Source: Candidatus Nanopelagicales bacterium (lineage in GTDB: Bacteria; Actinomycetota; Actinomycetes; S36-B12; CAIYMF01). Taken from it: a stretch of 47,418 nucleotides of DNA. Every line of letters starts with the position of its first letter. The stretch's first letter is position 1. The notes beneath the pieces were generated by a model. The model was not told the origin of the DNA. It worked only from the letters and a program-made list of their open reading frames with translations, and did no database searches. Positions 1,381 to 37,276 of the stretch are shown here, piece by piece. The stretch covers positions 1 through 47,418 of the forward strand of contig JADGOZ010000077.1 of the NCBI GenBank assembly GCA_017882705.1. The letters run 5' to 3'. The position numbers and the translations under genes are program-made.

Positions 1381-1436
1381 GTAACAGTCGGAAGAGTCCA
1401 GAAGCCCTTGTGGATATGAGCAGATCCGGCTGTTAC
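1381..1436. repeat. 56-bp palindromic repeat, copy A
   Basis: The outer arms are GTAACAGTCGGA (1381-1392) and TCCGGCTGTTAC (1425-1436), complementary with one mismatch (G.U in RNA). The first 14 bases are identical to the start of copy B at 2493. Copies A and B bracket the DUF559 gene. See copies C (37221) and D (39647). Confidence 0.75.
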
Positions 1437-1497
1437 CTGCACTGCCCTGGGGACGGGTCGGGCGGCGGCACACGACGGACACCGACCCTCGTGCCTC

Positions 1498-2496
1498 GTG
1501 GGACATCGCGCGCACACCGTCGAGGCAGTCGACCACCTCGTCGCGGCCCACGGGCCAGGACCCTGGTCCCTCGCTGAGCTCCGCGACCACGGTTGGAGCG
1601 TCAGCCAGGTTCGCCGAGCCGTGGATGCCGGTCGACTTGTCCGGTATCCGCGCGGCGTCCTGGGCCTGCCTCAGCTCGCGATGGTGCCCCATGCCGACGC
1701 TCGGCGGCATCAAGGGATCCAGGCTGCGCTTCTGACGGCGTCGTCCCGGGCCGTCGTCAGTCACGAGTCAGCGGCTGAGGTTCACGGGCTGTGGACACCG
1801 AGTCGTCGCGACGGGCACGTGCACCTGACGATCCCGGGAGCACCGGACGACGTGCGTCACGGCGTACGCGTTCACGGATCGGGACTCCCGGCGGAGCTCG
1901 TGACGCGGACCGGGGGGATCCCGGTCACGTCGATCGCTCGCACGGCGGTGGACGTGGCTCGGGGACGGGACCTTCCCTCGGCGTTGGTCATCCTCGACAG
2001 CGCGGTGCGGATGATCGCCGGTGCGGGGAAGTCCGCGACCCGTCTGCGCCAGCCCGAAGCCCGGCGCCAGGCGCTGGAGGCCGCCGCCCCGCTCCTCCGG
2101 GCCGCCCACGAGTCCGTCTACGGCTGGCCCGGAAGCGTCGCGGTCCGCAACGCCCTGCCAGTCATCGACGCGGGCAGCGAGTCAGCCTTCGAGAGCTGGT
2201 CCCGCGGACAGATGCTGGTGCACTCGGTTCCGACGCCATCGGTCGGAGTGCCGGTGCTGGGCACGTCCGGTCGGCTCTACTGGTGCGACTTCGGCTGGCT
2301 CGACAGGGGCGTCGTGGGCGAAGCCGACGGCTTGTCCAAGTACGGCGACACGTCAGATGACGTGCGGGCTTCCCTCGCCGCGGAACGTCACCGGCAGCGT
2401 GACATCGAAGATGCCGGTTGGCGATTCGTCCGATGGGACACCCGTGAACGGCCCGCCAGATGGATTGCTCGAGTCCTGAGGAGTCTCGGGGCGTAA
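1498..2496 (+). CDS. DUF559-type endonuclease-like protein with AbiEi-like N-terminus
   Basis: The protein has 332 aa from GTG 1498; no ribosome site is evident and the start is uncertain. The N-terminal ~60 residues (WSLAELRDHGWSVSQVRRAVDAGRLVRYPRGV) form a winged-helix of the type annotated as AbiEi antitoxin N-domain. The C-terminal ~110 residues resemble the DUF559/Vsr-like PD-(D/E)XK nuclease fold: SAFESW with a conserved Glu, then CDFGWLDRGVVGEADG with Asp and Glu-x-Asp, followed by a Lys (SKYG), and a closing WRFVRWD strand. Such proteins are common orphans in Actinobacteria, and their function is not established. No partner toxin is adjacent. The gene is exactly bracketed by palindromes A and B, and its TAA stop lies inside copy B. 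Confidence 0.85.
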   Translation: MGHRAHTVEAVDHLVAAHGPGPWSLAELRDHGWSVSQVRRAVDAGRLVRYPRGVLGLPQLAMVPHADARRHQGIQAALLTASSRAVVSHESAAEVHGLWTPSRRDGHVHLTIPGAPDDVRHGVRVHGSGLPAELVTRTGGIPVTSIARTAVDVARGRDLPSALVILDSAVRMIAGAGKSATRLRQPEARRQALEAAAPLLRAAHESVYGWPGSVAVRNALPVIDAGSESAFESWSRGQMLVHSVPTPSVGVPVLGTSGRLYWCDFGWLDRGVVGEADGLSKYGDTSDDVRASLAAERHRQRDIEDAGWRFVRWDTRERPARWIARVLRSLGA

Positions 2497-2548
2497 CAGT
2501 CGGAAGTGTTCCGAAATCGGCCCAGGAAGGCGCACTTCCGACTGGTAC
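2493..2548. repeat. 56-bp palindromic repeat, copy B
   Basis: Arms GTAACAGTCGGAAGTG (2493-2508) and CACTTCCGACTGGTAC (2533-2548) pair over 16 bp with one mismatch. The TAA stop of the DUF559 gene (2494-2496) is within the left arm. It lies between convergent genes and could also act as a transcription terminator. Confidence 0.8.
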
Positions 2549-34574: not shown

Positions 34575-36005
34575 ATGACCGACACCAAGACCTTCAACCT
34601 CCCCGACGTGGGCGAGGGCCTCACCGAGGCCGAGATCCTCACCTGGCACGTGAAGCCGGGCGACACGGTCACGGTCAACCAGACCATCGTCGAGATCGAG
34701 ACCGCCAAGGCCGCCGTCGAGCTCCCCTGCCCCTACGCCGGCGTCATCACCGAGCTCTTCGTCGCCGAGGGCGACGTCGTGCTCGTCGGCACCCCGATCC
34801 TCACCATCGCCACCTCGGGTCCGACCACCACGCAGGCGCCGGGCCCGGGGGCCGCCCGACCGGAGGTCGCGCAGGCGATCGGCTCGCTGCCGACGTCCGC
34901 GGCTCCGGCCGCGCGCGAGGCGGTGCTGGTCGGCTATGGCGTGAAGCAGACGGGCACGCCGCAGCGCCGCGCCCGCGTGCTCGCCCACGACCCGCACGGC
35001 ACCACCGCGCCCGAGGCCGGCCCGCCCGGCGAGGCCGTGAAGCCGGTGCGGCACGGGGGTCTCGAGATCGGCCGCCACGCCGAGGAGGTCCTCTCGCGGC
35101 GCGCGGCCGTCCTCGCCAAGCCACCGGTACGCCGGCTGGCGAAGGACCTCCACGTGGACCTCTCCGTGGTCGACCCCACCGGCGCCGGCGGCGTCATCAC
35201 GAGAGCCGACGTCGAGCGGACCGCCATGCTCACGGCAGCCGTGAGCACGGAGAGCCGTCCGGCGTCGACCCGGACGACGCCGCTCATGCGCGACGCGTCG
35301 ACGCCGCGGGAGGTGCGGACCCCGATCAAGGGGGTCACGAAGGTGATGGCCGAGGCGATGGTGGCGTCGGCGTTCACCGCGCCGCACGTCACCGAGTGGG
35401 TCGAGGTCGACGTGACCCGCACGCTCGACCTCGTCGATCGCCTGCGCACGCGTCCGCAGTTCGAGGGCGTCAAGGTGAGTCCGCTGCTGCTCGTCGCGAC
35501 CGGTCTGATCCGCGCGGCCCGAGCGCACCCGGGAGTCAACGCGACCTGGGACGCTGCGGCCGGCGAGATCGTGACGAAGAACTACGTGAACCTCGGCATC
35601 GCCGCAGCGACTCCGCGCGGACTCGTCGTACCGAACGTGAAGGACGCGGATCTGCTCGACCTCGTCGGGCTCGCCCGCGCGCTGCAGGACCTGGTCGAGA
35701 CCGCGCGTGCCGGTCGCACCAGTCCGGCCGACATGGCGGGCGGCACCATCACCATCACCAACGTCGGCGTCTTCGGCGTGGATGGCGGAACTCCCATCAT
35801 CAACCCCGGCGAGTCGGCCATCCTGTGCATGGGCCGCGCGGTGGCCAAGCCGTGGGTCGTCGAAGGAGAGGTGCGGGTGCGCCAGGTCATGCAGCTCACG
35901 CTGTCGTTCGACCATCGGCTCGTCGACGGCGCGCTGGGGTCGCAGGTCCTCGCGTCGGTCGCGCGCTTCCTCGAGGACCCGGCGGTCGAGCTTGTCCTCG
36001 GCTGA
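34575..36005 (+). CDS. bkdC: Dihydrolipoyl acyltransferase (E2)
   Basis: The 476-aa core subunit of the complex has one lipoyl domain (residues 1-80, lipoyl-Lys45 in EIETAKAAVEL), an E1/E3-binding domain (about 180-215, PPVRRLAKDLHVDLSVVD) and a catalytic acyltransferase domain with SFDHRLVDGA (His and Asp active-site pair). ATG 34575 is chosen because GAGGTGG lies just upstream; GTG 34563 is an alternative. The dihydrolipoamide dehydrogenase (E3) gene is not in the window and must be supplied from elsewhere. Confidence 0.93.
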   Translation: MTDTKTFNLPDVGEGLTEAEILTWHVKPGDTVTVNQTIVEIETAKAAVELPCPYAGVITELFVAEGDVVLVGTPILTIATSGPTTTQAPGPGAARPEVAQAIGSLPTSAAPAAREAVLVGYGVKQTGTPQRRARVLAHDPHGTTAPEAGPPGEAVKPVRHGGLEIGRHAEEVLSRRAAVLAKPPVRRLAKDLHVDLSVVDPTGAGGVITRADVERTAMLTAAVSTESRPASTRTTPLMRDASTPREVRTPIKGVTKVMAEAMVASAFTAPHVTEWVEVDVTRTLDLVDRLRTRPQFEGVKVSPLLLVATGLIRAARAHPGVNATWDAAAGEIVTKNYVNLGIAAATPRGLVVPNVKDADLLDLVGLARALQDLVETARAGRTSPADMAGGTITITNVGVFGVDGGTPIINPGESAILCMGRAVAKPWVVEGEVRVRQVMQLTLSFDHRLVDGALGSQVLASVARFLEDPAVELVLG

Positions 36006-37233
36006 CGGAGCCGCTGGTGCCGGAGCCTCGGGTGACGGTTCCGCGGTCGAGCACCCGTCCGGGCGTCTCGTCGAGCCCGGCACCGACGAGCGGTCGCGCC
36101 GCGCGACGCTCGACAACTGGCTCGATGCCGACCACATCGCGTGGTCGGTGCGGCACGTGCGCGAGCTCATCCCGACCGAGCGGATCCGCTCGTCGCCGTC
36201 GCCGCGCGCGCTGCCCGAGCGGCTCGACCCCGCGTTGCTCGACCTCACGGTCGAGGCGCACGACGGCGCGGTGCGGCTCGGGGACCTGCTGCGCGAGCGC
36301 GAGCGCGACGCCCTGCTCGTCGTGCACCGCGGCGAGGTCGTGCTCGACTGGCTCGCGCCGGGCGTGCGCACCGACGAGCAGCACCTCGTCTTCAGCGTCA
36401 CGAAGTCGGTCACCGGCCTGCTCGCCGGCGCGCTCGCGACCCGCGGCCAGCTCGACCTCGAGGCCTGCGTCGGAGACCTCGTGCCCGAGGTGGCGGGCAG
36501 CGCCTTCGCCACGGCGACCGTGCGCCAGCTGATGGACATGGAGGCGTCGTTCGCCTTCGTCGAGGACTACACGCCCGGACCCGACGTCGAGGCCTACCGG
36601 CATGCCGCGGGCTGGTACCCCGCGCCGCCGGGATCGCCCGCGCTGCGGGACTTCCTGGCCACGCGGGTGCCCGACGGCCCGCACGGCGAGCGCTTCCGCT
36701 ACCTCTCGCCGACGATCGACCTGCTCGGCTGGATCTGCGCGCGTGCCGCGGGCACGACCTGGGCCGAGGCCGTGGAGCGCCACCTCTGGCAGCCGTGCGG
36801 CGCCGAGCTCGGCGCGAGCGTCACGCTCGACCGCGAGGGCACGCCGCGAGCCGCGGGCGGGATGAGCGCTCTGCCGCGCGACCTCGCGCGTCTCGGACTC
36901 GTCGTCGCCGAGCGCGGTGCGGGGATCGTGAGCGAGGAGTTCCTCGACGACCTGCTGCACGCCGGGCACCGCGAGCAGTGGAAGCGCGGCGACTTCGCCG
37001 ACATGTGGGTCGACGGCGCCTACCGCTCAGGGTGGTACACGCCCAACCTCGACCCCGACGTCGTGCTCGGTGTCGGCATCTACGGCCAGATGCTCTACGT
37101 CGACGTCCCGAGGCAGGTCGTCGTCGTCGTCCTGTCGTCCTGGTCCGAGCCCGACGACGAGGACTGGCACCAGGACAACCACACCCTCTGCCGCACGCTC
37201 GCCCACCACCTCTCCCCGACGTCACTGGCGTAA
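35992..37233 (+). CDS. Beta-lactamase-fold serine hydrolase
   Basis: The ~413-aa serine hydrolase of the class C beta-lactamase/esterase superfamily has its nucleophile motif SVTK (Ser135, Lys138) in LVFSVTKSVTGLLAGAL. The remainder (YLSPTIDLLGWI, GGMSALPRDLARLG, GVGIYGQMLYVD) fits this superfamily. No export signal is seen, so it is probably a cytoplasmic esterase or amidase. The start is uncertain: TTG 35992 overlaps the E2 stop, and later GTG codons are possible. It follows the E2 gene directly and may be in its operon. The TAA stop sits inside palindrome C. Confidence 0.85.
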   Translation: MSSADGAAGAGASGDGSAVEHPSGRLVEPGTDERSRRATLDNWLDADHIAWSVRHVRELIPTERIRSSPSPRALPERLDPALLDLTVEAHDGAVRLGDLLRERERDALLVVHRGEVVLDWLAPGVRTDEQHLVFSVTKSVTGLLAGALATRGQLDLEACVGDLVPEVAGSAFATATVRQLMDMEASFAFVEDYTPGPDVEAYRHAAGWYPAPPGSPALRDFLATRVPDGPHGERFRYLSPTIDLLGWICARAAGTTWAEAVERHLWQPCGAELGASVTLDREGTPRAAGGMSALPRDLARLGLVVAERGAGIVSEEFLDDLLHAGHREQWKRGDFADMWVDGAYRSGWYTPNLDPDVVLGVGIYGQMLYVDVPRQVVVVVLSSWSEPDDEDWHQDNHTLCRTLAHHLSPTSLA

Positions 37234-37276
37234 GTGCGAAGCTGGAGACCTCCAGCTCGACAGTTGCGCCAGTGAC
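37221..37276. repeat. 56-bp palindromic repeat, copy C
   Basis: The ends are GTCACTGGCGTAA (37221-37233) and TTGCGCCAGTGAC (37264-37276), complementary at 12 of 13 positions. An inner 8-bp stem AGCTGGAG/CTCCAGCT closes on a 2-nt centre, so nearly the whole 56 bp folds into one hairpin. The stop of the serine hydrolase gene is within the left arm. Confidence 0.8.

Follow-up and report, generated by a model that had tools for sequence, protein, structure and literature searches.

What is a nuclease-like gene doing between two copies of one palindrome? The question is raised by a locus of Candidatus Nanopelagicales bacterium near the start of the window, by which we mean the whole stretch of DNA analysed (47,418 nucleotides of contig JADGOZ010000077.1). 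We argue below that the locus is a mobile, probably selfish actinobacterial DNA unit, whose protein would recognise and cut its own palindrome and so spread both palindrome and gene; we put the probability of this reading at roughly two in three.

A nuclease-like gene bracketed by two palindromes

A reading of the letters alone (the sequence-only reading) had reported a matched pair of 56-bp palindromes around the gene, with a common left end and with the stop codon inside the downstream copy. All three points hold: the lengths and coordinates of the copies are as given below, both begin with GTAACAGTCGGAAG, and the TAA at 2494-2496 falls within copy B. The features of the window are:

1381..1436, no strand: palindrome copy A, upstream bracket, 56 bp
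2493..2548, no strand: palindrome copy B, downstream bracket, 56 bp, containing the stop codon
1498..2496, + strand: gene for a predicted AbiEi-like DNA-binding part joined to a Vsr/EDxHD-like PD-(D/E)XK nuclease, 332 aa
1498..1683, + strand: predicted N-terminal winged-helix region, about residues 1-62 (AbiEi_4 matches, AlphaFold2 model, structural matches)
1684..2178, + strand: predicted AbiEi-antitoxin-like middle domain, about residues 63-227 (6y8q, 8an5, PADLOC AbiEi)
2179..2493, + strand: predicted nuclease domain, residues 228-332 (3r3p, 1cw0, residue conservation)
37221..37276, no strand: solo 56-bp palindrome of a second family (GTCACTGGCG type), cognate to a gene on contig C35 of the same genome

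The gene has a GTG start codon, 61 bp beyond the end of copy A, and its neighbours are rplI (ribosomal protein L9), a low-molecular-weight phosphatase gene (LMW-PTP) and a MATE transporter gene. Among the outer 20 positions, 14 are complementary in copy A and 17 in copy B, while the centres of the two copies are unlike each other. As single-stranded DNA both fold better than shuffled sequences (z -3.2 for copy A and -5.5 for copy B). The element has no match in Rfam above the gathering score.

Predicted structure of the protein

An AlphaFold2 model was built from 61 sequences (mean pLDDT 93.4, pTM 0.89), and its structural matches were sought among the fold families listed by VIA-align. In this predicted model the AbiEi antitoxin 6y8q aligns with residues 6-224 (Z 9.4, rmsd 5.0, 183 aligned) and MenT1 8an5 with residues 68-227 (Z 8.0); the winged-helix residues 1-62 are also covered, both by the structural matches and by the model. 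PADLOC assigns the window protein to AbiEi (E 3.7e-20). At the other end, residues 229-332 match the catalytic domain of I-Bth0305I, 3r3p (Z 12.0, rmsd 2.8, 92 aligned), and the nuclease domain matches Vsr, 1cw0 (Z 10.1, rmsd 2.6, 99 aligned). Within the family, E232, the GEADG motif (G274-E275-A276-D277-G278), K281 and Y282 are invariant and D264 is nearly so, as would be expected for an active site of the PD-(D/E)XK type; the domain is therefore probably active. By this prediction the protein combines a DNA-binding part like that of an AbiEi antitoxin with a nuclease like Vsr and I-Bth0305I.

Among the 61 members, Pfam finds AbiEi_4 in 40, DUF559 in 21 (E<=0.01), AbiEi_1 in 21 and MTES_1575 in 14. 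The window protein itself gives only weak matches to AbiEi_4 and MTES_1575 and none to the Pfam DUF559 model (PF04480), and NCBIfam has no name for it. This is a nuance to the earlier label of a DUF559-type nuclease.

Two known groups of proteins are brought to mind by this architecture. The N-terminal and middle domains resemble type IV AbiEi antitoxins (S. agalactiae AbiEi and M. tuberculosis Rv2827c), which, unlike the present protein, have no C-terminal nuclease; at the window locus no AbiEii nucleotidyltransferase toxin gene lies beside the gene. The nuclease fold, judged from the predicted model, is shared with the EDxHD homing endonuclease I-Bth0305I and with Vsr (Z 12.0 and 10.1). Unlike EDxHD homing endonuclease genes, however, the present gene is intergenic, at the window locus as at the Kribbella site described below, rather than placed in an intron, an intein or a phage or conserved coding gene, and an AbiEi-like DNA-binding part would take the place of the phage-type modules.

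Matched palindromes throughout the family

One scan of named genomes provided 80 family loci from many Actinomycetota. Each was given a pair score that assumes no motif and adds the complementarity of the left element, that of the right element and the likeness of left to right (maximum 54). A matched pair, with a score of at least 42, brackets 54 of the 69 family genes with complete flanks and none of 250 control ORFs taken from these loci, the highest control score being 41. In an earlier version of the test (score of at least 44) the counts were 40 of 80 family loci and 0 of 296 controls. About a fifth of the family genes have no detectable pair. The arrangement of a gene between palindromes is far beyond chance, and the counter-case named by the sequence-only reading, that other such genes in related genomes would have no palindromes next to them, did not arise.

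In most cases the upstream copy begins 80-180 bp ahead of the start codon; for the downstream copy the range runs from 40 bp ahead of the stop to 90 bp beyond it. Across the family the element is about 40-90 bp long, its ends vary (GTAACAG, GTCACTG, TTTGAGA and many others) and its sequence is specific to each family gene. Flanking copies are direct at 29 loci and inverted at 23; neither orientation is favoured, and so the unit needs no fixed one. Integron attC sites were considered as well, as palindromes with conserved ends, and were rejected: attC core sites read RYYYAAC/GTTRRRY, which the element ends do not fit.

Across 47 loci, protein identity correlates with the similarity of the palindrome arms (Mantel r 0.50, reached in 0 of 2000 permutations). 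The measure of palindrome likeness permits small shifts and its floor is therefore high: even distantly related pairs score about 0.46. In these alignments palindrome and protein diverge together.

Could the palindromes be ordinary terminators, or hairpins at mRNA ends, that flank the gene by chance? Many copies do lie directly after stop codons. But neither copy A nor copy B is followed by a T-run, and rplI has a separate terminator-like hairpin of its own (1315-1358). Nor would terminators be expected to have a fixed length, conserved arms and a gene-specific sequence common to both sides, to be paired around none of the 250 control ORFs, or to be missing from most related genomes that lack the gene, as is the case in Kribbella. 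The missing T-run, the unpaired control genes and the Kribbella distribution contradict this explanation, which we regard as extremely improbable; the sequence-only reading had named terminators without copy-number expansion as its own counter-case, and the copies do multiply.

A second possibility is that the palindromes are mere operators, bound by an AbiEi-like regulator at its own promoter, the solo copies being its regulon. AbiEi and Rv2827c do autoregulate through inverted repeats in their own promoters (PMC7319586), and the usual position of the upstream copy would suit an operator. This explanation is unlikely, as it does not account for the matched second copy downstream of the gene, for the many solo copies directly after stop codons or for the gain and loss of copies at orthologous sites, and it leaves the conserved nuclease part without a role.

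No relatives were found in IMG/VR contigs or in INPHARED phages, and plasmid records contain four weak ones. On these results a phage or plasmid origin was rejected.

Dispersed copies in the genome and the genus

The genome that contains the window (G000) is a draft of 194 contigs. An end-pattern search allowing up to 3 mismatches found nine GTAACAG-type copies of exactly 56 bp, namely A, B and seven solos, and the reversed control pattern gave zero matches. A covariance model finds 15 places at E<2e-4, adding six copies of the GTCACTGGCG type. The latter belong with a second gene of the family (contig C35:3828-4790). This gene is flanked by palindromes of a different sequence, one GTCACTGGCG-type copy lying 75 bp upstream and another copy downstream. 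Solos of this type number at least six in the genome, five elsewhere and one in the window (37221-37276), which supplies the stop codon (37231-37233) of the upstream ORF 35707-37233 and has convergent ORFs on either side. In this one genome there are thus two genes, and each is accompanied by a pair and a dispersed family of its own.

A third palindrome type (CACCGCCC) flanks a broken family gene on contig C95 (L073, 3008-3655), a decayed unit.

Elsewhere in the genus, G010 has about 32 palindrome copies of two types, G002 about six, and G003 a few 55-bp ones. Matched palindromes bracket nearly all intact family genes of the genus, with a sequence that differs from gene to gene. In G010 the GTAACAGYCCGAA-TGGGCC palindrome family (L080-L099) has about 16 copies and no cognate gene that we could find in the assembly; these are either orphan repeats or the mark of an assembly gap. 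On contig C79 of the same genome a palindrome pair lies 1.1 kb apart, like a unit, and no family gene was detected between its copies.

Full, solo and empty sites in Kribbella

Kribbella kalugense carries a family gene with its pair (L198) and one solo copy. The cognate 55-bp palindrome was counted in 38 Kribbella genomes: 13 have 25, 21, 19, 17, 15, 10, 7, 3, 3, 3, 1, 1 and 1 copies, and 25 have zero. Copies are present in 10 of the 10 genomes that have the gene at 69% identity or more and in 3 of the 28 others (Fisher 6e-7, relatedness ignored). The expansion in copy number anticipated by the sequence-only reading is thus found in the window genome, in its genus and in Kribbella, where it reaches 25.

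At the site of the K. kalugense unit, six genomes are full, with the gene and two palindromes, and G101 has a solo palindrome. Other genomes are empty: there little DNA separates the neighbour genes, in five cases 13 bp between conserved blocks. The empty sites for which the sequence-only reading had proposed to look in related strains therefore exist. In a tree built from the short flanks, full and empty genomes are interleaved, indicating repeated gain, transfer or loss, the polarity of which is beyond so weak a tree.

Three solo sites were also compared between Kribbella species, and every one of them carries a palindrome in some species but is empty in the rest. At site 3 the pair G128/G120 fits a clean insertion of about 61 bp (AACTTTG...CAAAGTT) after TGAAACC. 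No target-site duplication is visible at this well-aligned pair, and the flanks elsewhere are too diverged; the insertion of the unit at the K. kalugense site is untidy, with extra GC-rich DNA on both flanks. The want of a clear duplication, the untidy unit insertion, the weak polarity of the flank tree, the family genes that lack a pair, the unlike centres of copies A and B and the copies within larger repeats (below) all count against the mobile unit that we propose. At solo sites 1 and 2 (L276-L277, L344-L359) species differ in palindrome subfamily, with both arms altered in concert, a hint that whole palindromes have been replaced or gene-converted.

Pairing in the arms reaches 95% over 71 Kribbella copies, and the centre varies. 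Two-sided changes occur at three pairs (35 cells), a level reached in 0 of 500 shuffles; judged from these aligned copies, the arms co-vary and keep their complementarity.

Several of these observations would also suit homing-like spread, in which a site-specific endonuclease cuts the centres of solo copies, repair proceeds from the gene-bearing copy, so that the gene homes into solo sites, and solos are collapsed units or hitch-hikers on other elements. It overlaps with the mobile unit and differs in the path of movement. Conserved arms around a variable centre, one site with full, solo and empty states, and orthologous solo sites whose subfamilies differ in both arms together all speak for it, as does the nuclease domain, nearest to that of a homing endonuclease (I-Bth0305I, Z 12.0) with a target of nearly 60 bp (PMC3943268). 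But solos far exceed genes and lie at many unrelated sites, which homing alone would not create, and we regard this path as possible but tentative.

A proposed model for spread of the unit

The mobile-unit reading starts from what the analysis shows: gene-palindrome pairing, dispersed copies, co-divergence, full, solo and empty orthologous sites, and the predicted fold of the protein. From these we infer binding, cleavage, the form of the substrate (double-stranded or hairpin/cruciform) and the path of movement. The AbiEi-like part would bind its own palindrome by the arms, which form two inverted half-sites of about 20 bp on either side of the variable centre, and the Vsr/EDxHD-like nuclease would cut at or beside the palindrome, the arms thus serving recognition and the centre cleavage. 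The cut would allow either the palindrome alone, as a solo, or the whole palindrome-gene-palindrome unit to be copied or inserted at other places, for the most part next to gene ends, and a unit may collapse to a solo.

AbiEi proteins bind two 23-bp inverted repeats in their own promoters, 3 bp apart, or 13 bp apart in the case of Rv2827c (PMC7319586), and the target on which I-Bth0305I forms a dimer measures nearly 60 bp (PMC3943268). Both sizes fit a 56-bp element, which is probably the binding and cutting site of the protein; the paired repeats bound by AbiEi antitoxins (PMC7319586) would have their parallel in the palindromes. A double-stranded inverted-repeat target would fit the AbiEi-like domain and the size of the site at least as well as a hairpin; the chief alternative would be a RAYT-like action on a hairpin of single-stranded DNA. 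Either reading predicts covariation of the arms, since a dimer on two equal half-sites also demands symmetry.

Comparison with REP/RAYT and TIRYT elements

The sequence-only reading had likened the locus to a RAYT unit. The resemblance of layout, a Vsr-like-fold nuclease gene between palindromes, is real, and the idea as a whole is largely borne out. Like REPtrons and REPINs, the family combines an enzyme gene flanked by two palindromes with dispersed, mostly extragenic copies; the palindromes are gene-specific, there is no obvious target duplication, and no relatives were found in phages (IMG/VR, INPHARED). Membership of the RAYT group did not survive. RAYT enzymes are IS200/IS605-like HUH tyrosine transposases, whereas Pfam detected no Y1/HUH transposase domain in the window protein or in the 61 members, and the protein is predicted to be a PD-(D/E)XK nuclease with an AbiEi-like part; REPs are 20-40 bp long with a GTAG or GTGG head, whereas these elements measure 40-90 bp and have no GTAG head. 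Copy numbers are also in the tens rather than the hundreds, and a flanking pair may be direct or inverted. TIRYT elements, in which long terminal inverted repeats border a tyrosine transposase (PMC3733652), likewise have an enzyme gene between moderately abundant repeats, but theirs is a HUH enzyme and the repeats are mostly simple TIRs, whereas here each side has a complete palindrome.

We found no description of such elements in the open-access literature, most subscription papers lying outside the scope of the search, and this looks like an undescribed mobile-DNA family that resembles REP/RAYT but is built differently. On the broader proposition we are evenly balanced, namely that it represents an undescribed and widespread class of mobile element in which an antitoxin-like DNA-binding protein with a restriction-like nuclease, and no transposase, spreads its own palindrome and gene, the palindromes having co-evolved in each lineage. 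If true, there would be a second, chemically unrelated way of making and keeping REP-like palindromic repeats. A dedicated transposase is reportedly missing for some REP families (CGTC type; PMC3733652), which makes a non-transposase partner a live question. The model would also give a testable function to many actinobacterial proteins named only AbiEi-like or DUF559, and the dozens of co-diverged enzyme/site pairs would be useful for the study, and possibly the reuse, of long-site nucleases.

Copies within larger repeats

Four copies in the window genome (contigs C63, C23, C116 and C192; L060, L062, L063 and L064) lie within a common unit of about 145 bp, which suggests a larger MITE-like repeat built around the palindrome. 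In Kribbella G131 (L270-L274) and K. kalugense (L206), copies are found inside a MITE-like repeat of about 250 bp with AACGTTGACGACGT-type ends. Some of the copies may in this way be carried by another transposase. The wider view, that the palindromes are non-autonomous repeats mobilised by some unrelated DDE or HUH transposase while the nuclease gene rides along as a passenger, is quite improbable: the pairing and co-divergence of gene and palindrome over many genera would then be unexpected, and the other solos examined lack those longer flanks.

At Kribbella solo site 1, G120 and G099 (L360, L376) have unrelated repeat-rich insertions at the same intergenic spot, which looks like an insertion hotspot.
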